From NCBI GenBank assembly GCA_030578315.1, contig JAUQQL010000001.1, positions 23,869-87,868 of the forward strand: DNA of 64,000 bases, read 5' to 3'. Below, one piece after another: positions 41,886 to 56,577 of this stretch. How positions within the stretch are numbered: position 1 is the stretch's first letter; each line of letters begins with the position of its first letter. This DNA is from Thermodesulfobacteriota bacterium. Lineage in GTDB: Bacteria; Desulfobacterota; Thermodesulfobacteria; Thermodesulfobacteriales; Thermodesulfobacteriaceae. The translations under genes and the position numbers were made by a program. The notes beneath the pieces were generated by a model, which was not told where the DNA came from, searched no databases, and saw only the letters and a program-made list of their open reading frames with translations.

Positions 41886-43925
41886 ATGATAGATCGTGAA
41901 GCAAGATTTGGTAGGGGGAAGCTCCCTATTCAAAGTAAAACTGCTGAAGAGCTTTATCAGTATATTCCGGAAGAAGTATTTATAGCTCCTAAAAGAGTAG
42001 TTAGAAGAGGTACTACTCCTTGTGCTTTTGGTAAAGGAGGTTCCTGTTGCAAGGTTTGTAATATGGGACCTTGTCAGGTGGTAGAGGGGATTGAAGAATT
42101 AAGAGGTATTTGTGGAGCAACTGCTGCAACGGTAGTAGCTCGTAACTTTGCCAGAATGGTTGCTGCTGGAACTTCTGCTCACTCTGACCACGGAAGACAT
42201 ACTGCTCATACTTTTTATGAAGCTGTTCATGGAGAAGCACCTTTTAAGGTAAAAGATAGTAGAAAATTGAGGATTGTAGCTCAAGCTTTTGGGGTAGATT
42301 TAAATCTTCCTGAAGATGAAATGGCAAAGAGAGTGGCAGAAGAAGCTGTAAAAGCTTTTGGTCAACAGGAGGGAGAGTTAAAATTTGCTTTAAGGGCACC
42401 TCAGCCACTTATTGAAAAGTGGAGAAGATACGGAGTTATGCCTAGAGGGGTTGACAGAGAAGTTGTTGAAACTCTTCACAGAACTAGTGTAGGAGTTGAC
42501 CAAGATTATAGAAATATTCTTCTAGGAGCTGCTCGTTGTTCTTTAGCAGATGGATGGGGAGGTTCAATGATTGCAACTGAACTTCAAGATGTAATGCTCG
42601 GAACTCCTGTTCCTGTAAGAACTAAGGTAAATATTGGACTAGCTACTATTAAAAAAGATCATGTAAATGTAGTAGTTCATGGACATGATCCTATTTTAGC
42701 AGAGGCTTTAGCTGTTTCAGCTAGTGACCCTGAAATTGTAGCGGAAGCTAAAAAGGTTGGAGCTAAGGGAGTAAATTTAGCTGGTATTTGTTGTACGGGA
42801 AACGAAGTTTTGATGAGATATGGTATTCCAGTTGCTGGAAGTTTTATGCAACAAGAAGCAGCTATTGGAACTGGAGCTATTGAAGCTATAGTGGTAGATG
42901 TGCAGTGCATTATGATGAACATTGTGGAGGTAGCTAAACATTTTCATACCTTGGTAATTACGACAAGTCCTATAGCAAAGATGCCTGGAGCTCATCATAT
43001 AGAATTTGAGTCAACAAGGGCATTAGAGATTGCTAAAGAGATTTTAAAAATGGCGATTTCTCGTTATCCTTTGAGAGATAATAGTAAAGTTAGAATTCCG
43101 GAACATAGTGTAGATGTAGTGGTAGGATTTAGTCATGAAACCATAATGTATATACTTGGTGGGAGATTTAGGGCTTCCTATAAGCCTTTAAATGAAAATG
43201 TGATTAATGGAAGAATTTTAGGAGTTGCTGCTATAGTTGGGTGTGATAACTACCGAGTTGCGGAACCTATTTCTATTGAAATAGCTAAGGAGCTTATTGC
43301 TAATAATGTTCTTATTTTAGCTACGGGTTGTGCAGCAGTAAGACTTGGAACAGCTGGACTTTTAAGACCTGAAGCTGCAGAACTTGCTGGTCCAGGACTA
43401 AGGGAGGTATTGGAAGCTGTGGGATGTCCACCAGTTCTTCATATGGGGTCTTGTGTAGATAATTCAAGAATTCTTTTAGCTGCCACTGAGGTTGTTAGAA
43501 CTGGAGGTCTTGGGGAAGACATTTATCAGATTCCTGCTGTAGGATCTGCTCCTGAGTGGATGAGTGAAAAGGCTATTGCTATTGGAATGTATTTTGTGAC
43601 AAGCGGTGTTCAAGTAGTTTTTGGTCCTACATTTCCTACTCTTAATAGTAAAGAAGTTTGTGACTTTTTATTTAATGAGATTGAAACTTATTTTGGAGGA
43701 AACTGGAGAGTTGCTAGGACAGCTAATGAATTTGTAAATATTATGATAGACAGAATTAATTTTGGTAGGAGAAATCTTGGAATTGATAAGCCTAAACCAA
43801 GAATTCTTTACGATATGGCTATGAGAAGAGCTTTAGCTGCTCCAAAAGTGGAAACTCCTCAACATCTTGTGGGTTATTATGGACCTATATCTTTAAAAGG
43901 TAGTGTGGAAGAGAAGAAGGCTTAA
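41886..43925 (+). CDS. acsA: Carbon monoxide dehydrogenase catalytic subunit (CooS/AcsA)
   Basis: CAFGKGGSCCKVCNMGPCQV, GICGATAATVVARNFARMVAAGTSAHSDHGRH, NLAGICCTGNEVLMR, ATGCAAVRLGTAGLL, GSCVDNSRI. Confidence 0.96.
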   Translation: MIDREARFGRGKLPIQSKTAEELYQYIPEEVFIAPKRVVRRGTTPCAFGKGGSCCKVCNMGPCQVVEGIEELRGICGATAATVVARNFARMVAAGTSAHSDHGRHTAHTFYEAVHGEAPFKVKDSRKLRIVAQAFGVDLNLPEDEMAKRVAEEAVKAFGQQEGELKFALRAPQPLIEKWRRYGVMPRGVDREVVETLHRTSVGVDQDYRNILLGAARCSLADGWGGSMIATELQDVMLGTPVPVRTKVNIGLATIKKDHVNVVVHGHDPILAEALAVSASDPEIVAEAKKVGAKGVNLAGICCTGNEVLMRYGIPVAGSFMQQEAAIGTGAIEAIVVDVQCIMMNIVEVAKHFHTLVITTSPIAKMPGAHHIEFESTRALEIAKEILKMAISRYPLRDNSKVRIPEHSVDVVVGFSHETIMYILGGRFRASYKPLNENVINGRILGVAAIVGCDNYRVAEPISIEIAKELIANNVLILATGCAAVRLGTAGLLRPEAAELAGPGLREVLEAVGCPPVLHMGSCVDNSRILLAATEVVRTGGLGEDIYQIPAVGSAPEWMSEKAIAIGMYFVTSGVQVVFGPTFPTLNSKEVCDFLFNEIETYFGGNWRVARTANEFVNIMIDRINFGRRNLGIDKPKPRILYDMAMRRALAAPKVETPQHLVGYYGPISLKGSVEEKKA

Positions 43926-43976: not shown

Positions 43977-44038
43977 AAGATTGTTATTATATACTTTTTA
44001 AAAAAGTATTTAAAAAAGTTTGAAGGGGGATGAAAAAA

Positions 44039-47000
44039 ATGAGTAATGCTAAAGGAAAAGTTTTAATTGTAGGAGGAGGAATTGCAGGTATTCAATCTGC
44101 TTTGGACTTGGCAGATCTTGGATATTATGTTTATTTGGTAGAGAAGAAAGCTACTATTGGTGGGGTTATGGCACAACTTGATAAGACTTTTCCCACCAAT
44201 GATTGTAGTATCTGAATTTTAGCCCCAAAAATGGTAGAGGCCGGTAGGTCTCCCAACATTGAAATTTTGACCTTAACTGAGATTGAAAGTATTGAGGGAG
44301 AACCGGGTAATTTTAAAGTGAGGTTAAAGATAAATCCAAGATATATAGACCCTTCTAAGTGTACAGCTTGTGGAGATTGTGCTAAGTATTGTCCAAGATT
44401 AGCTATAGATTCTTTTAATGCCAACTTAACATTTACTCGTTCTGCTCATATAGATTTTCCTCAGGCAGTTCCGACAGTGTATTATATAGATGCTGAAACT
44501 TGTCTTCATTTAAATTATGAAACTTGTATGCTTTGCACTAACATATGTGGTCCTAAGGCTATAGATTTTTCTCAAAAACCTGAGTACAGAGAGGTAGAAG
44601 TAGGAGCAGTTATTATAGCTCCTGGATTTGGTCCTGTACCTCAGGAAGCTTTGGAGAAATATGGTTATGGAACTTATGATGATGTAGTAACTAGTATTGA
44701 AGTTGAACGTATGACCTGTGTTTCGGGTCCTACAGAAGGAGAAGTAATAAGGCCTTCGGACTTTAAACATCCTAAAAAGATTGCTTATATTCAATGTGTG
44801 GGGTCTCGTGATTTAACTTGTGATAGAAATTACTGTTCTACTGTTTGTTGCATGTATGCGGTTAAGGAGGCTACTATAATAAAAGAACATGAACCTTCTG
44901 CTGAAATAACTTTATTTTTCATGGATGTAAGGACTCAAGGTAAGGGATTTGATGAAGCTTTTAGAAACTATGTAGAAAAGTATAAAATGAGAGTTGTTAG
45001 GGCAAGGCCTCCAAAGATAGAAAAGGTAGGAGAAAAATTAGCTTTAACCTATGTAGATGAGGATGGTCAGAGAAAAAGGGAACTTTTTGACATGGTAGTT
45101 TTGTCTGTAGGGCTTTCTCCTCCTAAGGATGCAGAAAAGCTTGCTTCTATTTTTGGGATCGAGCTTAATGAGTTTAAGTTTGCAAAGACTTCAGCTTTAA
45201 AACCTATAGAGACTAACCGTCCTGGAATTTATGTAATTGGGGCTTTTCAGGGACCTAAAGATATTCCTGAAAGTGTTATGCAAGCTTCGGGTGGAGCTGC
45301 AACGGTTTCGGAACTTCTTAAAGAAGGAAGATTTACTAGTTACGTAGTAAAAGAGTATCCTCCTGAGGATTTAGAACTTATGTCTGGAGAACCAAGGATT
45401 GGAGTATTTGTGTGTCACTGTGGGGTAAACATCGCAGGTGTAGTAAATGTTAAAGAGGTAGTAGAATATGCTAAAACACTTTCCAATGTGGTTCATGCTG
45501 AAAATTTGACTTATGCTTGTTCTCAGGATTCTTTAGACACTATTAAGAAAAGAATACAAGAACATAAGCTTAATCGTGTAGTAGTTTCTGCTTGTTCTCC
45601 AAGAACCCATGAGCCTCTTTTCCAAGATACCATTCGTGAGATGGGTTTAAATCTTGCGCTTTTTGAGATGGCTAATATTAGGGACCAGTGTTCTTGGGTT
45701 CATGCAGACGATCCTGAAAAAGCAACTGATAAGGCTAAGGACTTAGTGAGGATGGCTGTTTCTAAAGCTAGGAGACTTAAACCTCTTGAGCTGCAAAAGG
45801 TTCCGGTAACTCCTTCGGCTTTGGTAGTAGGTGGGGGGGTTGCGGGAATGATTTCAGCGCTATCTATTGCTGAGCAAGGTTTCCAGGTATATTTAGTTGA
45901 GAAAGAATTTGAGCTTGGAGGAAATTTAAAGAGGGTTAAGTATTTGATAACTGGTGAGGATCCACGGGAATTTGTAAAAGAGCTAATTTCTAAGGTTGAG
46001 GCTCATCCTAATATAAAGATTTTTAAGGGAGCAACTATTGAGAATGTATCAGGTTATATAGGGAATTTTACGACCACTATTAGAGTTGGGGATTCTTCTG
46101 AGTTAGTGAATCATGGAGTGGTGGTGGTAGCTACTGGTGGAAGAGAATATAGGCCTTCTAGATATCCTTTAGATGGAAAAAAAGTTATAACTCAACTTGA
46201 ATTAGAAGAAAGATTAGCTCAAGGTAAGGATTTAAGTGATGTGAAAAAAGTGGTGATGATTCAGTGTGCTGGTTCAAGAGGAGAGGAATTGACTTACTGT
46301 AGTAAAGTTTGTTGTGTTCAAGCCTTGAAAAATGCTTTAAAAATAAAGGAGATAAAACCTGAGGTTGATGTTTTTATTCTTTATATGGATATGAGAGCTT
46401 ACGGATTTTATGAAAAGTATTATTTTGAAGCAAGGAAAAAAGGTATTAAATTTGTAAGGTATTTAAATGAGAGAAGACCTGAGGTGGTAAGTGGAGGAGT
46501 GAAGGTTTACGACATGATAGCTGGTGAAGAACTTTTTATTCCTGCAGACTTGGTTGTGCTTTCAGTGGGAATTGTTCCTTCAGAGGATAAAGATATAGTT
46601 AATATGCTTAGGATTCCTTGTGGAGCTGAAGATGGATTCCTTATGGAAGCTCATGTAAAATTAAGACCTGTTGATACAGCAACAGATGGTGTTTTTATTT
46701 GTGGACTTGCTCATGGACCGAAACCATTGGAAGAAGTTATATCTCAGGCTAAGGCTGCAGCAGGGAGAGCTACTATTCCTCTTGCTAAGAAAGAGGTTGA
46801 GGTATCACCTATTGTGGCTGGTGTGGACGAAGGTAAATGTATTGGATGTGGTATTTGTGTAGAGCTTTGTCCGTTTTCAGCTATTGAATTGTTAAAGGTA
46901 GATAAAAAAAGAAAAGCCAAAGTTATAACTGCAGCTTGTAAGGGTTGTGGAATTTGTGCATCGCACTGTCCTGTATTTGCTATAGATGTAGGTGGTTTTA

Positions 47001-47092
47001 CGAGAGAGGCTATTTTGGAACAACTAGCTGGTTTCAAGAAAGAGGTGGTAGAAAAGGTATTGGAAGAAAAAAAGGCAGAGGTGGGAAGCTAA
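44039..47092 (+). CDS. hdrA: Selenocysteine-containing heterodisulfide reductase subunit A (HdrA-like), about 1017 aa, UGA(Sec) codon at 44213-44215
   Basis: The two track ORFs 44030-44215 and 44231-47092 are in one frame; joined reading ...[29 protein letters not shown] matches the HdrA motif with Cys/Sec; FAD GGGIAG motifs and several CxxCxxC ferredoxin motifs; SD aaggggg upstream of ATG 44039. Confidence 0.93.
44237..44252 (+). promoter_or_regulatory. Bacterial SECIS-like hairpin of hdrA
   Basis: GAGGCC-GGUA-GGUCUC, 6-bp stem (one G-U), GGU in loop, apex 27 nt after UGA. Confidence 0.78.
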
Positions 47093-47129: not shown

Positions 47130-47840
47130 ATGGGTTTCGAACCAAGAATATTAGCTTTTATGTGTCATTGGTGAGCTTATACAGCTGCTGATGGAGCCGG
47201 GGTTGCTCGTCAGAACTATCCTCCTTACTTGAGAGTAGTAAGAGTGATGTGTACAGGAAGAGTTGATCCTTTATTTGTAATGATGGCTTTTAATAATGGT
47301 GCAGATGGAGTATTAGTTGCAGGATGTAGAATTGGAGAGTGTAAGTATGGAGAGGGTAATTTAGAAGCTTTACTTATGGGTGAGACGGTAAAAAATCTTA
47401 TGAAACTTTTAGGAATGGAAGAAAAAAGATTGAGACTTGATTGGGTTTCTTCTTCTGAGTCTGCTAAAATTGTGGAGATTATAAGAGACTTTTCTAATAC
47501 ATTACAAGAAATTGGGCCTTTAGGAGAAAAAGAAGGTTGGAGTGAAGAAGACAAAAAGTTTTATTTAGAAAGTGCAGTTGCACTTTGCAATAATATGCAA
47601 TTTAGGTCTTCTTATGGAAATTTAGCTAGGGAAATAAAAAAGATGGGAGATTTTTCTTTAGAGGTTATAACTAAGAAGGTAGAGGAAAAGCTTTTATCTG
47701 CTATGAAGACTAGACTTTATGAAATTGAGATTAAAGAGTTAGTAAAAGATGGTCCTAAGAGTTTAGATTATATAGTTGGTAAAATTAAGGGAGATCCTGT
47801 AGAAATAGAAAAAATTTTATCTAAAATAATAAAAACTTAG
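47130..47840 (+). CDS. mvhD: Selenocysteine-containing MvhD/VhuD-like [2Fe-2S] subunit, UGA(Sec) at 47172-47174
   Basis: ATG 47130 with SD aaggaggg; reading MGFEPRILAFMCHW-U-AYTAADGAGVARQNYPPYLRVVRVMCTGRVDPLFVMMAFNNGADGVLVAGCRIGECKYGEGN; track ORF starts late (TTG 47229) because UGA was read as stop. Confidence 0.93.
47188..47213 (+). promoter_or_regulatory. Bacterial SECIS-like hairpin of mvhD
   Basis: CUGAU-(G bulge)-GAGC-CGGGGUU-GCUC-GUCAG, 9 bp plus bulge, GGU in loop, 23 nt after UGA. Confidence 0.75.
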
Positions 47841-47851
47841 GGGGGGCTACT

Positions 47852-48415
47852 TTGAGTGTAGAGAGCCTGACTGTAAAACTTTTAGAAAAGGTTCAAGAGC
47901 CTAAGTTAAGGTCTTTAGTTTCTGGTCAAGTAGAGAGTTTTGACCAATGTTTTAGGTGTGGTGCTTGTTCTGGGATCTGTCCGGTTAAAAAAACTACTCA
48001 AGTTTTTGATCCTCGTAAAATTATTCATCTTCTTTTGTTAGGTTTTAAGGAAAAGATTTTAAATGAAGTCTTATGGTATTGTTCTCAGTGTGGAAGTTGT
48101 GTTCCGGTATGTCCTATGGATGTTAAGCCTAAAGAAGTAATTGCAGCTATTAGGAAATTTATGTTAGATGAAGGATTGATTACATTAGATAATCTTTTTG
48201 AATTGGGCAAATTTGCAAGAGTTATTAAAGATAAGTGTATAGTTTGTTTAACTTGTGTTAGACTTTGTCCTTTTTCAGCTCCGGTGATTAATCCCGAAGG
48301 GTATGCAGAAATTCAAGTGGATAAATGTAAGGCTTGTGGAATTTGCGTGCAGGGTTGTCCAGCTCGAGCAATAGAATTAAGAAAAAATCCAGAATATATG
48401 GAGGTTAGGTACTAA
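47852..48415 (+). CDS. HdrC-like iron-sulfur protein with additional 2x[4Fe-4S] ferredoxin domain
   Basis: CFRCGACSGICPV, CSQCGSCVPVCPMDV, CIVCLTCVRLCPF, CKACGICVQGCPA; TTG start with strong SD aggggggg. Confidence 0.88.
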   Translation: MSVESLTVKLLEKVQEPKLRSLVSGQVESFDQCFRCGACSGICPVKKTTQVFDPRKIIHLLLLGFKEKILNEVLWYCSQCGSCVPVCPMDVKPKEVIAAIRKFMLDEGLITLDNLFELGKFARVIKDKCIVCLTCVRLCPFSAPVINPEGYAEIQVDKCKACGICVQGCPARAIELRKNPEYMEVRY

Positions 48416-48813
48416 TGGAAGAAAAGGGATTTAAATTGGGTATTTTATGTTGTAATTACACTAATTTGGCAGAAAAAGAAGACTTTAGTGAAATTTTAAG
48501 TGAAGTTATTATGAAAAGATATCCTTGTTCTGGGCATATTGAAATTACGGATATTTTGAGGACTTTTAGAGAAGGTGCTGAAGCTGTTTTGGTTGCGGGT
48601 TGTCAGAAAGGAACTTGTCATAATGAGAACGGAAGTTTAAGAGCTGAGCATCAGGTTGAGGGAGCTCAAAGAATTATTGAGGAGATAGGGCTTCACAAAG
48701 AATTTTTAAAGTTTGTTTATGTGGAGAGGCTAAATACTGGGGATTTTATGGAAAAGGTAAAAGAATTTTATAAAGAAGTTTTAAATAAACTTTTAAAGGA
48801 GAAGAAGGTATGA
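48415..48813 (+). CDS. Second MvhD-like (hydrogenase delta subunit family) protein
   Basis: GILCCNYTNLAEKE...YPCSGHIEITDILRTFREGAEAVLVAGCQKGTCHNENGS. Confidence 0.85.
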   Translation: MEEKGFKLGILCCNYTNLAEKEDFSEILSEVIMKRYPCSGHIEITDILRTFREGAEAVLVAGCQKGTCHNENGSLRAEHQVEGAQRIIEEIGLHKEFLKFVYVERLNTGDFMEKVKEFYKEVLNKLLKEKKV

Positions 48814-49513: not shown

Positions 49514-51973
49514 GTGGAATACAGAAGCCATTTAGAAAGATTATTAAAAGAAGGTCAATTTGTAGTTACTAGTGAGATAGGGCCTCCTAGAAATGCAGAT
49601 GGGGAGGTAGTGAGAAAAAAGGCTAAAATGTTGAAAGGATATGTAGATGCTGTAAATATAACTGACTGTCAGACAGCGGTAGTTAGGCTTTCAAGTTTGG
49701 CTTCGGCTGTAATTATTTTATCAGAGGGTTTAGAACCGGTTATGCAGATGACTTGTAGAGATAGAAACAGAATAGGAATTCAGTCCGACCTATTAGGTGC
49801 TTATGCTCTTGGAATTAGAAATCTTCTTTGTTTAACAGGTGACCATCACAAATTTGGTAATCATCCCATGGCTAAACCTGTTTTTGACCTAGATTCTATT
49901 TCACTTTTAAATATGGTTAAAGGTTTAGCTGAAGGTAGATTTCAAAATGGAGAACCATTAAAGGGAGTGAGACCAAACTTTTTTAGGGGAGCAGCAGCTA
50001 ATCCTTTTGCAGATCCTTTTGAATTTAGAGTTAAAAGATTGGCTAAAAAAGCTAAGGCAGGAGCAGAGTTTATTCAAACTCAAATTATTTATAATGTAGA
50101 TAAATTTAGAAAGTTTATGGAAATGGCAAGAGATGAAGGTCTTTTAGAAAATCTTTATATTTTAGCAGGAATTACACCTCCTAAATCTTTAGGAATGGCT
50201 AAATATATGAAATATTATGTTCCTGGAATGGATGTTCCTGATGAAGTTATTAAGAGGATGGAATCTGCTAAAGATAAACAGGAGGAAGGTATTAGCATAG
50301 CAGTAGATATTATTAATCAGGTAAGAGAAATTCCTGGAGTTAGAGGGATTCACATTATGGCTATTGAATGGGAAGAAGCTGTTCCTGAGATAGTGAAAAG
50401 GGCAGGGCTTTTACCTCGTCCCGAAGCTCCGGAAGTTGTTCCACCTTTTGTGGTGGAGAAAATTGTTGAAAAACCTGTAGAGGTGATTGTAGAAAAAATA
50501 GTAGAAAAACCTGTGGAAGTAGTGGTAGAAAAAGTAATAGAAAAACCTGTGGAGGTAATTATGGAAGAGAAGGGATTACGTTCTGAACTTCCTTTAAATG
50601 TAATAATAGATGTTTTAGCTAATATGAGGGCAAGTTTAGAAAGTTTAAAGTCTGGTATCTCCTTTTTAACTGAAAGTTTAGAAAAGCTTGAAACTACAGT
50701 GCTTGGTAAACCTGTTGAGAGACCTAAAGTTATAGTAGAGAAACCCAAGGTTGAAGTAGCACCTCCAAAGGTTGAGGTAGCACCTGAGGTAAAACCTGTA
50801 GTTGAAGAAGTAAAGCCTGTAGAGGAAGTAAAGCCAGTGGTAGAAGTTGTGCCTGAGGTAAAAGTTGAAGAAAAGGTTGAAGTAGCACCTCCAAAGGTTG
50901 AGGTAGCACCTGAGGTAAAACCTGTAGTTGAAGAAGTAAAGCCTGTAGAGGAAGTAAAGCCAGTGGTAGAAAAAGTTGAGATTAAAATAGGAGAATTTAC
51001 TGGGGTATATAGACCTCTTTCGGAAAGAGCAAAAGGCATTTCGGAGGATCTTTTTATTGAAAAGTCTTCTGATATGATAAAAGAAGTAGTTATTGGAAAA
51101 GGAGATAAGGCTTTAAGGATAGGTGGCAGTAATGTTTTAAATTTTCACTTATTTGAAGGTGAGATGAAACATGGAGTTAAAATTGCTATGGAGGTTTTGG
51201 ATATAGAACCTAAGGAATGGCCGGATAGTTTAAAGAAGTATTTTGCTGATGTTTATCATGATCCGGTTCTTTGGGCAAAAAAGTGTGTAAACGAATATGG
51301 AGCTGAGGCAATTTGTTTGTATCTTATGGGAACAGATCCCAATCTTTTAAATTTAGATGCTAAGCACGCAAAGGAAGTAGTTAAAAAGGTTGCAGATGCT
51401 ATTGATGTTCCTTTAATTATCTGGGGTTCTGGAAATGCTGAAAAGGATACAGAAGTTTTAAGAGAGGTAGCAGAAGTTGTAGCTGAAAAGGGTGCTTTAA
51501 TAGGACCTATAGTTGAAGCTAATCATAGAACTTTAGCAGCTGTAGCTTTAGGATATAATCTTCCTGTAATTGCTTCCACTCCCATTGATGTAAACTTAGC
51601 TAAACAACTTAATATTTTACTTGAAGGAATGGGTATTCCTTTAGACAGAATTGTAATGGACCCATCTATAGGAGCATTAGGTTATGGAATTGAGTATACT
51701 TATTCAGTTATGGAAAGAATAAAGTTAGCAGCTCTTTATGCTCAGGATAAGCAACTTCAGGTTCCTTTTATTTGTATGTTAGGAAAGGAAGTATGGAAGA
51801 CTAAAGAGGCTAATTTACCTACAGATGATACTTTTGGTGAGCAAGAAATGAGAGGAGTTATTATGGAAGCATTAACAGCTGTGGCTTTAGCTGTAGCAGG
51901 TGGAGAGTTACTGGTAATGAGACATCCTAAGGCAGTTCAACTTTGTAAACAACTTTTTAAAGCTTTAAGTTAA
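49514..51973 (+). CDS. Fusion: MetF (methylene-THF reductase) - repetitive linker - AcsD/CdhD (corrinoid iron-sulfur protein small subunit)
   Basis: MetF half VTSEIGPPRNADGEVVRKKAKMLKGYVDAVNITDCQTAVVRLSS..NLLCLTGDHHKFGNHP..FIQTQIIYNVDKF; AcsD half LRIGGSNVLNFHLFEGEMKHGVKIAMEV..EYGAEAICLYLMGTDPN..MDPSIGALGYGIEYTYSVMERIKLAAL..MRHPKA; continuous frame, GTG start. Confidence 0.93.
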   Translation: MEYRSHLERLLKEGQFVVTSEIGPPRNADGEVVRKKAKMLKGYVDAVNITDCQTAVVRLSSLASAVIILSEGLEPVMQMTCRDRNRIGIQSDLLGAYALGIRNLLCLTGDHHKFGNHPMAKPVFDLDSISLLNMVKGLAEGRFQNGEPLKGVRPNFFRGAAANPFADPFEFRVKRLAKKAKAGAEFIQTQIIYNVDKFRKFMEMARDEGLLENLYILAGITPPKSLGMAKYMKYYVPGMDVPDEVIKRMESAKDKQEEGISIAVDIINQVREIPGVRGIHIMAIEWEEAVPEIVKRAGLLPRPEAPEVVPPFVVEKIVEKPVEVIVEKIVEKPVEVVVEKVIEKPVEVIMEEKGLRSELPLNVIIDVLANMRASLESLKSGISFLTESLEKLETTVLGKPVERPKVIVEKPKVEVAPPKVEVAPEVKPVVEEVKPVEEVKPVVEVVPEVKVEEKVEVAPPKVEVAPEVKPVVEEVKPVEEVKPVVEKVEIKIGEFTGVYRPLSERAKGISEDLFIEKSSDMIKEVVIGKGDKALRIGGSNVLNFHLFEGEMKHGVKIAMEVLDIEPKEWPDSLKKYFADVYHDPVLWAKKCVNEYGAEAICLYLMGTDPNLLNLDAKHAKEVVKKVADAIDVPLIIWGSGNAEKDTEVLREVAEVVAEKGALIGPIVEANHRTLAAVALGYNLPVIASTPIDVNLAKQLNILLEGMGIPLDRIVMDPSIGALGYGIEYTYSVMERIKLAALYAQDKQLQVPFICMLGKEVWKTKEANLPTDDTFGEQEMRGVIMEALTAVALAVAGGELLVMRHPKAVQLCKQLFKALS
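50747..50971 (+). repeat. Exact 99-bp direct repeat (copies 50747-50845 and 50873-50971) in MetF-AcsD linker
   Basis: Both copies read aaggttgaagtagcacctccaaaggttgaggtagcacctgaggtaaaacctgtagttgaagaagtaaagcctgtagaggaagtaaagccagtggtagaa. Confidence 0.95.
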
Positions 51974-52004: not shown

Positions 52005-54245
52005 ATGTCTAAAATTATTTGTTCTGCAGCTATTAGAGGGGCACATAAAATTGTGAATATGGCTTGGGAAAAATACGAAGAAGCGGTAAAAAAGTATGGT
52101 AAAGAGCAAGAGGTAGGTTTTCCTAATACTGCTTATTATTTACCTATTATTTATGCTATTTTAGGTTATCCTGTTAAAAGGTTAGGAGATTGTGGTGAGG
52201 TTTTGGAGGAAGCTAAAAAGCTTCTACCTCCTATTCCGGAAGAAGAAGTTTGGACACCTTATTTAGGTCCAGCTTTAGATGCTGGAATGGCAACATTTTT
52301 TGCAGAAGAGGTTATTGAAGCTATAAGGTATTTAGAGGATCCTGATTTTTATACTAAAACAGAGGACCCACTTAATGGAAATTATTGGTTAGGTGCAGCA
52401 GATGATGTTATTTTTAGAAAAAGAGGAGTAGAGTTTGTGGACGGTACTGCACCTGGTTTTGCTGCTATTTTAGGAGCTCCTATTGCTGAAACTAGAGAAA
52501 AAGCTAGAGAATTAGCTGTAAAATTAGCCAATGAACTAAGAGAAAAAACTCTTTATGTATTTATGCATGACCAAACTAATGGAATTTATATGCCAGAGCT
52601 TTTAAGGGAAGCTGGTGTTCAGCTTGGTTGGAATGTTCGTTTAATTCCTTTTGGTCCTACTTATACTTCGGTAGTTTTTGCTATTGGCTTTGCTTGTAGA
52701 GTTGCTATGGCATTTGGTGGAATTAAACCTGGAGACTATATGGGTAATCTTCTTTACAATAGAGATAGAACTTATGCTTTTGCTATGCCTTTTGGTCCAG
52801 TATCAGACGAATGGTATGCTAATGCTGCAGGTGCTATAAACTGGGGATTTCCTACTATTTCTGACTGGGATATTCCAGAGATAAAGCCTTATGGTATTTG
52901 TATGTACGAACATGTTGTATCTAAAGTTCCTTATGAAGAGATTGTAGACCGTGCAGTAGAAGTAAGAGGTCTTAAGGTTACAGCTGTAAAGTTAGATATT
53001 CCTGTTTCTTATGCTCCAGCGTTTGAAGGTGAAAGAATAAGGAAAGAAGACCTTTATTTGGAGTGTGGAGGAGGTAGGACTATAGGAGTTGAGCTTCTTG
53101 TTTCTAAACCTTTGGATGAGGTAGAAGATGGTAAGATTGAGGTGATTGGACCTGATATTGATGAATTACCTAAACTTGGTTTTCAAGGTCCTCCTTATAG
53201 AGTGCCTTTAGCTATTTTAGTAAAAGTTGCTGGTGCAAGAATGCAAGAAGACTTTGAGCCTATTCTTGAAAGACAATTTCATCATTTAATTAATTATGCT
53301 CAAGGTGTAATGCATGTTGGACAGAGAAATATTATGTGGATAAGAATTGGTAAGCAAGCAGCTGAAAAAGGATTTTTATTTAAACATATTGGAAAAATTC
53401 TTTATGCTAAATTAAGACAAGAATTTAGTGCTATTGTAGACAAATGTGAAGTTACTATTTATACAGATGAAGGAAAAGCTAAAGAGATATTGGAAATGGC
53501 TAAAGAAATTTATGCTAAAAGAGATGCTCGTTTGGCAGGACTTACTGATGAAGATGTAGATACTTATTACACTTGTACATTATGTCAAAGTTTTGCTCCC
53601 AGTCATGTATGTATAGTTACTCCTGAGAGAATGGGGCTTTGTGGTGCTTACAGCTGGCTTGATGCTAAAGCTTATTATGAATTAAATCCTGCTGGTCCTA
53701 ATCAGCCCATTCTTAAAGGTCAATTACTTGATGAAACCTATGGAAAGTTTGAAGGTACAGAAGAAGCGGTTAAGAAGTTTTCTGGTGGAAAGGTGCAAAG
53801 TGTTTCACTTTACAGTATTTTGGTAGATCCTATGACTTCTTGCGGATGTTTTGAATGTATAGCTGCCATTTTACCTTCTATCAATGGAATTATGATAGTT
53901 CATAGAGATTATACGGGAATGACTCCTACTGGAATGAAATTTACCACCATGGCTGGAATGGTAGGTGGAGGTCAGGTAACTCCTGGATTTGTGGGGATTG
54001 CTAAACTTTATATTGCTTCCAGAAAGTTTTTGAAAGCTGAAGGTGGGCTTTTAAGAGTGGTATGGATGCCTAAATCTCTTAAAGAAGAGATTAAAGATAA
54101 ATTGATAGAGAGAGCTAAAGAGCTTGGAGTGCCTGATTTGTTAGATAAAATTGCAGACGAAACTACAGCTAATACTGAAGAAGAATTAGCTGAATGGATT
54201 AAGAAAGTAAACCATCCAGTTTTGAATTTACCTCCTTTAATGTAA
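52005..54245 (+). CDS. acsB: Acetyl-CoA synthase catalytic subunit (AcsB/CdhC)
   Basis: YYTCTLCQSFAPSHVCIVTPERMGLCGAYSWLDAKA, DPMTSCGCFECIAAILP, DYTGMTPTGMKFTTMAGMVGGG. Confidence 0.97.
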   Translation: MSKIICSAAIRGAHKIVNMAWEKYEEAVKKYGKEQEVGFPNTAYYLPIIYAILGYPVKRLGDCGEVLEEAKKLLPPIPEEEVWTPYLGPALDAGMATFFAEEVIEAIRYLEDPDFYTKTEDPLNGNYWLGAADDVIFRKRGVEFVDGTAPGFAAILGAPIAETREKARELAVKLANELREKTLYVFMHDQTNGIYMPELLREAGVQLGWNVRLIPFGPTYTSVVFAIGFACRVAMAFGGIKPGDYMGNLLYNRDRTYAFAMPFGPVSDEWYANAAGAINWGFPTISDWDIPEIKPYGICMYEHVVSKVPYEEIVDRAVEVRGLKVTAVKLDIPVSYAPAFEGERIRKEDLYLECGGGRTIGVELLVSKPLDEVEDGKIEVIGPDIDELPKLGFQGPPYRVPLAILVKVAGARMQEDFEPILERQFHHLINYAQGVMHVGQRNIMWIRIGKQAAEKGFLFKHIGKILYAKLRQEFSAIVDKCEVTIYTDEGKAKEILEMAKEIYAKRDARLAGLTDEDVDTYYTCTLCQSFAPSHVCIVTPERMGLCGAYSWLDAKAYYELNPAGPNQPILKGQLLDETYGKFEGTEEAVKKFSGGKVQSVSLYSILVDPMTSCGCFECIAAILPSINGIMIVHRDYTGMTPTGMKFTTMAGMVGGGQVTPGFVGIAKLYIASRKFLKAEGGLLRVVWMPKSLKEEIKDKLIERAKELGVPDLLDKIADETTANTEEELAEWIKKVNHPVLNLPPLM

Positions 54246-54286: not shown

Positions 54287-55648
54287 ATGGGACTTACAGG
54301 AATTCAAATAATGCAAAAACTTCCCAAAACTAACTGTGGAGATTGTGGTTTTCCTACTTGTTTAGCTTTTGCTATGAAAGTAGCTACAGGGGAAGTTGAA
54401 ATTGGGAAGTGTCCTCATGTAGATCCAGCTGTAAAAGAAGAAATTGAGGAGGCTTCTGCTCCTCCTATTAGAACTGTAAAGTTAGGAGGAGGGGAAAATG
54501 TTTACAAACTAGGGGGAGAAACTGTTCTTTTTAGACATGACAAAAGATTTGAAAATCCTCCTCTTATGGGAACTTTCATTGCAACCAATATGAATGATGC
54601 TGAAATAGAAAGAAGGATTGAGCTTTATAAAAAATTTCAGTGGGAAAGAGTAGGAGTTAAACTTTTTCCTGATGTGATCTTTATTGAAGACAAAGGTGAT
54701 GGAGTAAAATTTGTAGAGTTAGTTAAGAAAGCAAGAAAAGAGATTCCTTGGGTAGCTATTGTTTTAAGTTCTTCTAATGTAGATACTTTAAAGGCAGCTA
54801 TTACAGAATGTGGCGATTTTAAACCTCTTATTTATGGAGCTAATGCTTCCAATTTAGAAGCACTCTGTAGTTTAGCTTTAGAAACTAAAACTCCTTTAAC
54901 TGTAGTAGGAGATAGTCTTGGAGAAGTGGTTAAGCTTTCTGAGGAGGCAATAAAAAAAGGGTTGAAGGACTTAGTTTTAGACACAGGAGCTAAAAGTGTA
55001 AAAGAACTTTTTGAAGACTTGGTAATTGTTCGTAGAGCTTCTATTAAAAAAAGATTTAGACCTCTTGGATTTCCGGTTATAACTTTTACTTACAGGTATG
55101 CTTCGTCTTTAGACCTTGAAGCAGTGTTAGCTGGTTTACTGATTGCCAAATACGCTAGTGTAATTATTCTTTCGGACTTAACAGCAGATACTCTTTACAA
55201 CCTTATGGTAGAAAAGATGAATATTTACACCGATCCTCAGAAACCTTTAGTAGTTGAAGAAGGTATTTATCCTATTAATGGTCCTGACGAGAATGCTTTA
55301 GTGGCTATTACTTGTAACTTTGCTTTAACCTATTTTATAGTAAATGGAGAAATTGAAGGTAGTAGAGTTCCTACTTGGCTTCTGATTAAAAATACTGATG
55401 GACTTTCTGTTCTTACAGCTTGGGCAGCAGGTAAGTTTACGGCTGATGGTATAGCGGAATTTGTTAAGAAATGCGGTATAGCAGATAAAGTAAAGCATAG
55501 AAAACTTATTATTCCTGGATATCTTGCAGGGATGAAGGGAGAATTAGAGGATGAACTTTCGGGCTGGGAAATTATTGTAGGACCGAGAGAAGCTAGTGGA
55601 ATTCCTGCCTTTTTCAGAAACTTGATAAAGGAGATGGCAGCAGCTTAA
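54287..55648 (+). CDS. acsC: Corrinoid iron-sulfur protein large subunit (AcsC/CdhE)
   Basis: N-term LPKTNCGDCGFPTCLAFAMKVATGEVEIGKCPH cluster motif; C-terminal corrinoid domain. Confidence 0.95.
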   Translation: MGLTGIQIMQKLPKTNCGDCGFPTCLAFAMKVATGEVEIGKCPHVDPAVKEEIEEASAPPIRTVKLGGGENVYKLGGETVLFRHDKRFENPPLMGTFIATNMNDAEIERRIELYKKFQWERVGVKLFPDVIFIEDKGDGVKFVELVKKARKEIPWVAIVLSSSNVDTLKAAITECGDFKPLIYGANASNLEALCSLALETKTPLTVVGDSLGEVVKLSEEAIKKGLKDLVLDTGAKSVKELFEDLVIVRRASIKKRFRPLGFPVITFTYRYASSLDLEAVLAGLLIAKYASVIILSDLTADTLYNLMVEKMNIYTDPQKPLVVEEGIYPINGPDENALVAITCNFALTYFIVNGEIEGSRVPTWLLIKNTDGLSVLTAWAAGKFTADGIAEFVKKCGIADKVKHRKLIIPGYLAGMKGELEDELSGWEIIVGPREASGIPAFFRNLIKEMAAA

Positions 55649-55686: not shown

Positions 55687-56577
55687 ATGAGTCAAACTGT
55701 AGTGTGTATTGCAGAAAGTATTAACATAATGTCTAAAAAAATTGGAACAGCTATGAAGCAAAGAGACCCTGGTCCTATTCAAGAAATGGCTAAGGAAGAA
55801 ACAAGGTTGGGAGCAGATTATTTAGATTTAAATATTGGTCCTGCTAAAAAAGATGGGCCAGAACTTGCACCCTGGATTGTAAGGGTAGTAGAAGAGGTAG
55901 TGGATACTCCTATTTCTTTAGATACTACGAATCCTGATGCTATGATTCCAGGTATTAGAGCCTCTAAAAATCCCCAAAAAGCTCTTATAAATTCTATTTC
56001 TTTAGAAAGAGTAGATAAACTAGGTCCTTTTGCTGCGGAAGTTGGCTGTGATGTAGTAGCTCTTCTTTGGGGACCTCAAGGTCTTCCAAGGGATGCTAAT
56101 GAAAGAGCTTCCATTGCTGTAGATCTTATTATGAAACTTAATGAATATGGAATACCAAACGAAAAAATTTGGGTTGATCCTATTGTTACTCCTATTACTC
56201 TTGGAGCTCAACAAATTCTAGAACTTCTTACTTTTTTCTCTATGCTTCAAGACATTGCTCCTGGTGCTAAGAGTACTGTAGGACTTTCTAATGTTTCTAA
56301 CGGAGTAAGACCTGAGCTTAGGCCTTATCTTAATAGAGTAATGCTTATGATGCTTATGAAGTATAATATCTATTCTGCTATAGTGGATGTTTATGACCAG
56401 GAATTAGTAGAAATTGCTAAAGGGAAACACCCAGATTGGGTTGCTTTAACTCATAGGATTATGGATGGAGATGAGCCAGATCCTAAGACTCTTTCTCCTA
56501 AAGAACTAGAGATATATAAAACAGTTAGAGTTTTAATGGGTAAAACTATTTTCTCTGAATCCTGGTTACAAATTTAA
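55687..56577 (+). CDS. acsE: Methyl-THF:corrinoid iron-sulfur protein methyltransferase
   Basis: GADYLDLNIGPAKKDGPEL, TPISLDTTNPDAMIPGIR, GLSNVSNGVRPELRPYLNRV. Confidence 0.95.
   Translation: MSQTVVCIAESINIMSKKIGTAMKQRDPGPIQEMAKEETRLGADYLDLNIGPAKKDGPELAPWIVRVVEEVVDTPISLDTTNPDAMIPGIRASKNPQKALINSISLERVDKLGPFAAEVGCDVVALLWGPQGLPRDANERASIAVDLIMKLNEYGIPNEKIWVDPIVTPITLGAQQILELLTFFSMLQDIAPGAKSTVGLSNVSNGVRPELRPYLNRVMLMMLMKYNIYSAIVDVYDQELVEIAKGKHPDWVALTHRIMDGDEPDPKTLSPKELEIYKTVRVLMGKTIFSESWLQI

Follow-up and report, generated by a model that had tools for sequence, protein, structure and literature searches.

A MetF–AcsD fusion protein of Thermodesulfobacteriales and the conserved helix within its linker

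The window, a 64,000-nucleotide stretch of contig JAUQQL010000001.1 from a Thermodesulfobacteriota bacterium, carries an operon in which MetF and AcsD share one reading frame (Table 1). The fused ORF (49514-51973, plus strand) runs from GTG 49514 to TAA 51971-51973 with no interruption, encodes 819 aa and has an SD-like GGAGG immediately 5′ of its GTG. The first-pass annotation, made from the letters of the window, had described one 819-codon ORF with MetF followed by AcsD, and the open frame, the Pfam and PDB matches and the folds obtained with AF2 and Foldseek all agreed with this. Running the Pfam scan that it had recommended located both domains on a single chain, MTHFR PF02219 at residues 7-298 (1.8e-42) and CdhD PF03599 at residues 524-765 (3.6e-44); the former spanned PF02219 positions 2-287 of 287, i.e. 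a full-length MTHFR TIM-barrel. In the PDB sequence search, residues 513-816 matched the CFeSP small subunit 2h9a_B (1.2e-80) and the further small-subunit entries 2ycl/4djd, and residues 4-301/19-306 matched MTHFRs. The AF2 model, obtained in a single-chain run on the window protein aligned with relatives (38 rows in all), contained two confident barrels, at residues 1-300 (MetF pLDDT mostly >90) and about 510-819, and Foldseek assigned TMt values of 0.95 against 2h9a_B and 0.81 against the T. thermophilus MTHFR 1v93. The pTM of 0.47 for the whole fusion chain is expected from independent domains on a flexible tether. In the MetF domain, E21, T108-G109-D110 and Q188-T189-Q190, which may correspond to E. 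coli E28, D120 and Q183, were invariant in 15 fusions, and the AcsD domain scored above the cut-off of NCBIfam NF003376 (380.6 bits vs 280) and below that of NF040759 WLP_AcsD (299 vs 430). These results demonstrated that the 819-aa chain consists of a complete MetF, a ~195-aa linker and a complete AcsD. The earlier statement that the window holds no second acsD could be extended to the whole genome, in which no other AcsD was found; one distant MTHFR is encoded on another contig, with 35% identity over residues 6-206. This second MTHFR (L031 541-2157, contig 11) is one 539-aa chain with a MetV-type C-terminal domain.

Table 1. Features of the fused chain and of the surrounding operon in the window.
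Feature	Residues	Coordinates	Strand	Evidence or remark
MetF domain, flavin-type TIM-barrel methylene-THF reductase	1-306	49514..50431	+	Pfam, AF2, Foldseek
Linker 1, VEK(I/V)VEKPVEV repeats, predicted disordered	307-354	50432..50575	+	36-bp tandem repeat; pLDDT <50
Conserved helical coiled-coil-like module, LNVIIDVLANMRASLESLKSGISFLTESLEKLETTVLGKPV	361-401	50594..50716	+	
Linker 2, Pro/Glu/Val/Lys-rich, predicted disordered	406-500	50729..51013	+	126-bp tandem repeat; pLDDT <50
AcsD domain, corrinoid iron-sulfur protein (CFeSP) small subunit	501-819	51014..51970	+	Pfam, PDB, Foldseek
cooS/acsA, CO dehydrogenase (CODH)		41886..43925	+	TIGR01702 7e-173
HdrA-like flavin/FeS subunit		44030..47092	+	Reads through TGA 44213
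MvhD/FlpD-like subunit		47130..47840	+	Pfam FlpD 1.4e-31; reads through TGA 47172
HdrC-like ferredoxin-type subunit		47852..48415	+	Pfam Fer4 families
Second FlpD/MvhD-like subunit		48415..48813	+	Pfam FlpD 1.8e-22
metV, zinc-binding MetF partner, PF12225		48810..49478	+	Pfam 2e-36; directly upstream of fusion
acsB, acetyl-CoA synthase (ACS)		52005..54245	+	NF040764
acsC, CFeSP large subunit, AcsD heterodimer partner		54287..55648	+	NF003195 5e-166; FeS motif PF04060
acsE, methyl-THF:CFeSP methyltransferase		55687..56577	+	NF005719 6.5e-57

The metV gene adjoins the fusion in every genome in which hdr genes are present. The true start of the HdrA-like gene lies upstream of the mechanical ORF at 44231, and the in-frame TGA codons occur in the contexts ...FPTNDCSI[TGA]ILAPKM... 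(44213) and FMCHW[TGA]AYTAAD (47172). A tRNA-Sec is encoded in the genome, and the two codons are probably selenocysteine sites, giving two selenoproteins in one operon. No HdrB (CCG-domain) gene was found among the operon proteins scanned with Pfam, and the Rfam search of the operon returned sub-threshold noise only.

The roughly 180-aa linker of the first-pass annotation is close in size to that measured here, ~195 aa (about residues 307-500), and is not only a spacer, because two low-complexity arms flank a conserved heptad-repeat helix. The AF2 pLDDT was <50 over residues 313-359 and 398-488, and two helices were modelled between the arms, at 361-379 and 386-397. At the DNA level the linker contains a 126-bp unit in 2.0 copies and a 36-bp unit in 2.8 copies, so its exact length and repeat count may be mis-assembled in this assembly. 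An antisense ORF (50350-51039) overlaps the linker and is taken as a by-product of linker composition. In Thermodesulfobacteriales the helix comprises ~41 residues with the consensus xPxEALKEIFSxLRxSxxxLRxGIExLxEGLAxLExxLLG, one Gly being invariant, and it was found in fusions from all three families of the order. A hydrophobic periodicity of 3.5 residues (heptad) was significant in each intact copy tested (p = 0.02 to <0.001), with the copy in the window showing the weakest (p 0.02). The dN/dS of the helix was 0-0.09 wherever computable, and the ~41-aa heptad-repeat helix evolves under purifying selection; linker 2 diverges by indels between close species. TPR repeats were added to the linker in family f2, in most of family f3 and in Dissulfuri-type genomes. 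The Desulfobulbia and Dissulfuri-type fusions carry another conserved helix, also in single copy, which matches between these two groups with a profile probability of 99%. Homology of the Thermodesulfobacteriales helix with that of Desulfobulbia (4.6%) or of the Dissulfuri-type genomes (43%) was considered and set aside, the profile matches being unconvincing.

The same architecture, which the first-pass annotation had suggested seeking across the phylum, was found both within and beyond the order. Among 43 genomes of Thermodesulfobacteriales from three families and ten genera, the fused frame was uninterrupted in 33, including complete genomes such as G011, G014, G018, G019, G032 and G034, and three more have it truncated by a frameshift or where the contig stops. 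Within the phylum sample of 398 genomes, 25 sampled genomes outside the order had AcsD within frames of about 870-1170 aa, and all 15 of these long frames that were read encoded MetF and AcsD in one ORF; Desulfobulbia loci, including that of Desulfurivibrio sp. AMeS2 (L091), carried the fusion as well. No MetF–AcsD fusion was recognised in 46 genomes reached through loci of other phyla. The fused sequences formed one clade in the AcsD tree (SH-aLRT 99) and one in the MetF tree (support 87), and both trees contained a single nested unfused group (G005, G006, G009 and G013); in the AcsD tree G042b also appears unfused, but is a fusion truncated where its contig stops. The two topologies indicate one ancient fusion followed by one later fission nested inside it; Thermodesulfobacteriales, Desulfobulbia and several further families of the phylum inherited the fused gene. 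In L075 and L079 (Ca. Desulfaltia and a Desulfobacterales MAG), which branch near the fused MetF clade, metF and acsD are adjacent but separate, an arrangement that may resemble the pre-fusion state.

In the fission lineage formed by the four unfused genomes, of which G006 is complete, MetF stops at the domain border, AcsD restarts at a new ATG with its own SD, and the helix was left on the AcsD side. Sequencing error was rejected as an account of these genomes, as four species have the same stop and the same split arrangement, each with the new SD and ATG. In the 12 genomes searched, one helix each was found in the fusion linker, the exception being the fission lineage, where it occurs at the N-termini of both AcsD and CODH. 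The profile probability of the helix was 97.6% against the split AcsD N-termini and 96.4% against the CODH N-termini, and the CODH helix of G009 scored 2e-11 although it lay outside the query set. These matches indicate that the fission left the helix on AcsD and that CODH of the same lineage gained a copy of it. The helix was absent from the fusions of the complete genomes G011 and G014, in which no CODH besides a truncated remnant was found and ACS, CFeSP and AcsE are still present; G001 and G007 share this operon state, yet keep a distant CooS elsewhere. This co-occurrence, which reflects few independent events, is the ground for linking the helix with CODH. The operon CODH of these four genomes (L052, L055, L058 and L061 for G001, G007, G011 and G014) has shrunk to ~470-489 aa and ends in a ferredoxin-like part.

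CFeSP subunits were found fused to further partners in relatives. AcsC and AcsE form one chain of 776-812 aa in L032, L045, L054 and L057 (G002, G003, G006 and G009), and because this fusion coexists with MetF–AcsD in G002 and G003, MetF and AcsE would there be attached to different subunits of the CFeSP heterodimer. Fusions of AcsD to CODH occur in two other members of the phylum, G069 and G142 (L165 5315-8686, 1123 aa; L166 3922-7362, 1146 aa), and in Chloroflexota (L170 5888-11299; L171 5271-8885; L172 3281-6586) AcsD lies behind ACS (AcsB), joined via a Pro/Ala/Glu-rich linker with one short helix. CFeSP subunits have four fusion partners in nature, MetF, AcsE, CODH and ACS, mostly joined through flexible arms and often with a short embedded helix, and such repeated fusion speaks for a physical association among them. 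An intein with a LAGLIDADG domain lies in the AcsB portion of L170. In a further AcsD group, with frames of about 500-545 aa, an extra C-terminal region was read in L167 (3075-4580).

In the pathway MetF makes methyl-THF, AcsE moves the methyl group onto the cobalamin of the AcsC/AcsD heterodimer, and CFeSP delivers it to ACS. The first-pass annotation had held that the fusion joins the last reduction of the methyl branch to the methyl acceptor; the physical tie of MetF to AcsD is retained here, but the direct joining is not, since AcsE performs the transfer, so that the fusion co-localises the steps and sets a 1:1 stoichiometry while the donor and acceptor active sites are not joined. We infer, with a rough probability of 0.62, that a flexible tether with a coiled-coil assembly module keeps the methyl carrier complexed with MetVF and probably with CODH. 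A MetV/Hdr/MvhD complex from this operon would hold the MetF end, the helix would oligomerise or dock as a short coiled coil, and the long arms could let AcsC-bound AcsD visit AcsE for the methyl group and then ACS for its delivery. CODH/ACS and the final steps of the methyl branch would thereby be assembled locally, with MetF and CFeSP fixed at 1:1, a design that may be compared with the flexible arm and small binding domain of pyruvate dehydrogenase E2. The metabolon suggested in the first-pass annotation would fit this assembly and is favoured by the way relatives join CFeSP subunits to AcsE, CODH and ACS. Counting against the tethered assembly, the fusion has been maintained in Desulfobulbia with another helix and with neither metV nor hdr as its neighbours. 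In addition, MetF is free and presumably working in the fission lineage, so covalent attachment is not essential, and its product is small and diffusible, so flux need not gain from tethering. A stronger version, which we hold to be less likely than not, is that the helix is a dedicated Wood-Ljungdahl assembly domain through which MetF–AcsD chains oligomerise and recruit CODH, that MetV/MetF, CFeSP, AcsE, ACS and CODH form one particle, and that the same helix on AcsD and on CODH took over after the fission. The CFeSP fusions make the question of how this mobile methyl carrier of the Wood-Ljungdahl pathway is kept near the enzymes it must visit testable with single polypeptides from cultured thermophiles, and the conserved helix is a specific candidate module that could be moved to other proteins to assemble enzymes of carbon fixation.

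Four other explanations were weighed against the tethered assembly. The fusion may do no more than ensure that MetF and AcsD are co-expressed in a set stoichiometry, with a neutral spacer for a linker and no higher assembly. Both arms are indeed low-complexity and variable, and since L075 and L079, whose MetF sequences are the closest unfused ones, have metF and acsD side by side as separate genes, the fusion could have begun with the simple loss of a stop codon; we nevertheless regard this explanation as unlikely, given that the helix is conserved in three families under purifying selection, was retained on AcsD after fission and, in that lineage, was put to use again on CODH. Post-translational cutting of the 819-aa chain into independent MetF and AcsD is improbable: the arms are predicted to be disordered and would be easily cut, and one lineage lives on separate proteins, but a single open frame is maintained across an ancient clade, a conserved cleavage motif was not seen, and a conserved helix between the arms would lack purpose. 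Small odds likewise attach to electron supply, in which CFeSP would be placed near the MetVF-Hdr flavin/FeS complex for re-reduction of the inactive Co(II) corrinoid. CFeSP requires low-potential reactivation, and genes for HdrA, MvhD and HdrC subunits neighbour metV in the operon; however, the fusion persists without hdr genes alongside in Desulfobulbia and in G001, G007, G011 and G014, and AcsC brings its own FeS domain for reactivation. A frameshift or assembly collapse at the linker, raised in the first-pass annotation as a ground for doubting the fusion and made conceivable by the tandem DNA repeats, is ruled out as the source of the architecture by the intact frames in 33 genomes of the order, complete ones among them, a conservation that makes a chance or artefactual fusion untenable.

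The first-pass annotation knew of no described MetF–AcsD fusion, a view overtaken by the 2016 Desulfurivibrio alkaliphilus genome paper (PMC5016858), where "mthfr/acsD fusion" appears in the abbreviation list only. The genome paper of Thermosulfurimonas dismutans, a member of the order, names TDIS_1006 as MTHFR only, and a text search of a 2026 paper on the pathway in Desulfobacterota (PMC12827605) did not turn up any fusion. For the linker helix, no describing paper was found among the open-access papers searched. The architecture was therefore already known, and the extent of the fusion and the anatomy of its linker are apparently new. In D. alkaliphilus AHT2 a single acs-cluster gene, DaAHT2_0827, likewise encodes both MetF and the CFeSP small subunit, and the fusion of Desulfurivibrio sp. 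AMeS2 falls in the same clade as that of the window in both trees. The Desulfobulbia fusions differ from the window in having no metV or hdr directly beside them, and their linkers carry a helix AGEHEMNEKER...GLSDEQFDAL between Ala-rich arms, in contrast to the heptad helix and EKP-rich arms of Thermodesulfobacteriales. As an analogy, with homology not claimed, 2-oxoacid dehydrogenase E2 also has a carrier protein on disordered Pro/Ala/charged arms, between which sits a short helical binding module, its cofactor and chemistry being unlike those of the window protein. In Moorella thermoacetica and other acetogens MetF and AcsD are separate, each giving a full-length match to the corresponding domain of the window chain, and metV is adjacent; the linker and helix have no counterpart in these separate proteins. 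With the MetVF-HdrABC-MvhD complex the window operon shares metV and HdrA-, HdrC- and MvhD-like genes; it differs in the fusion of MetF to AcsD, in its two probable selenocysteine sites and in that no HdrB gene was seen in the cluster.
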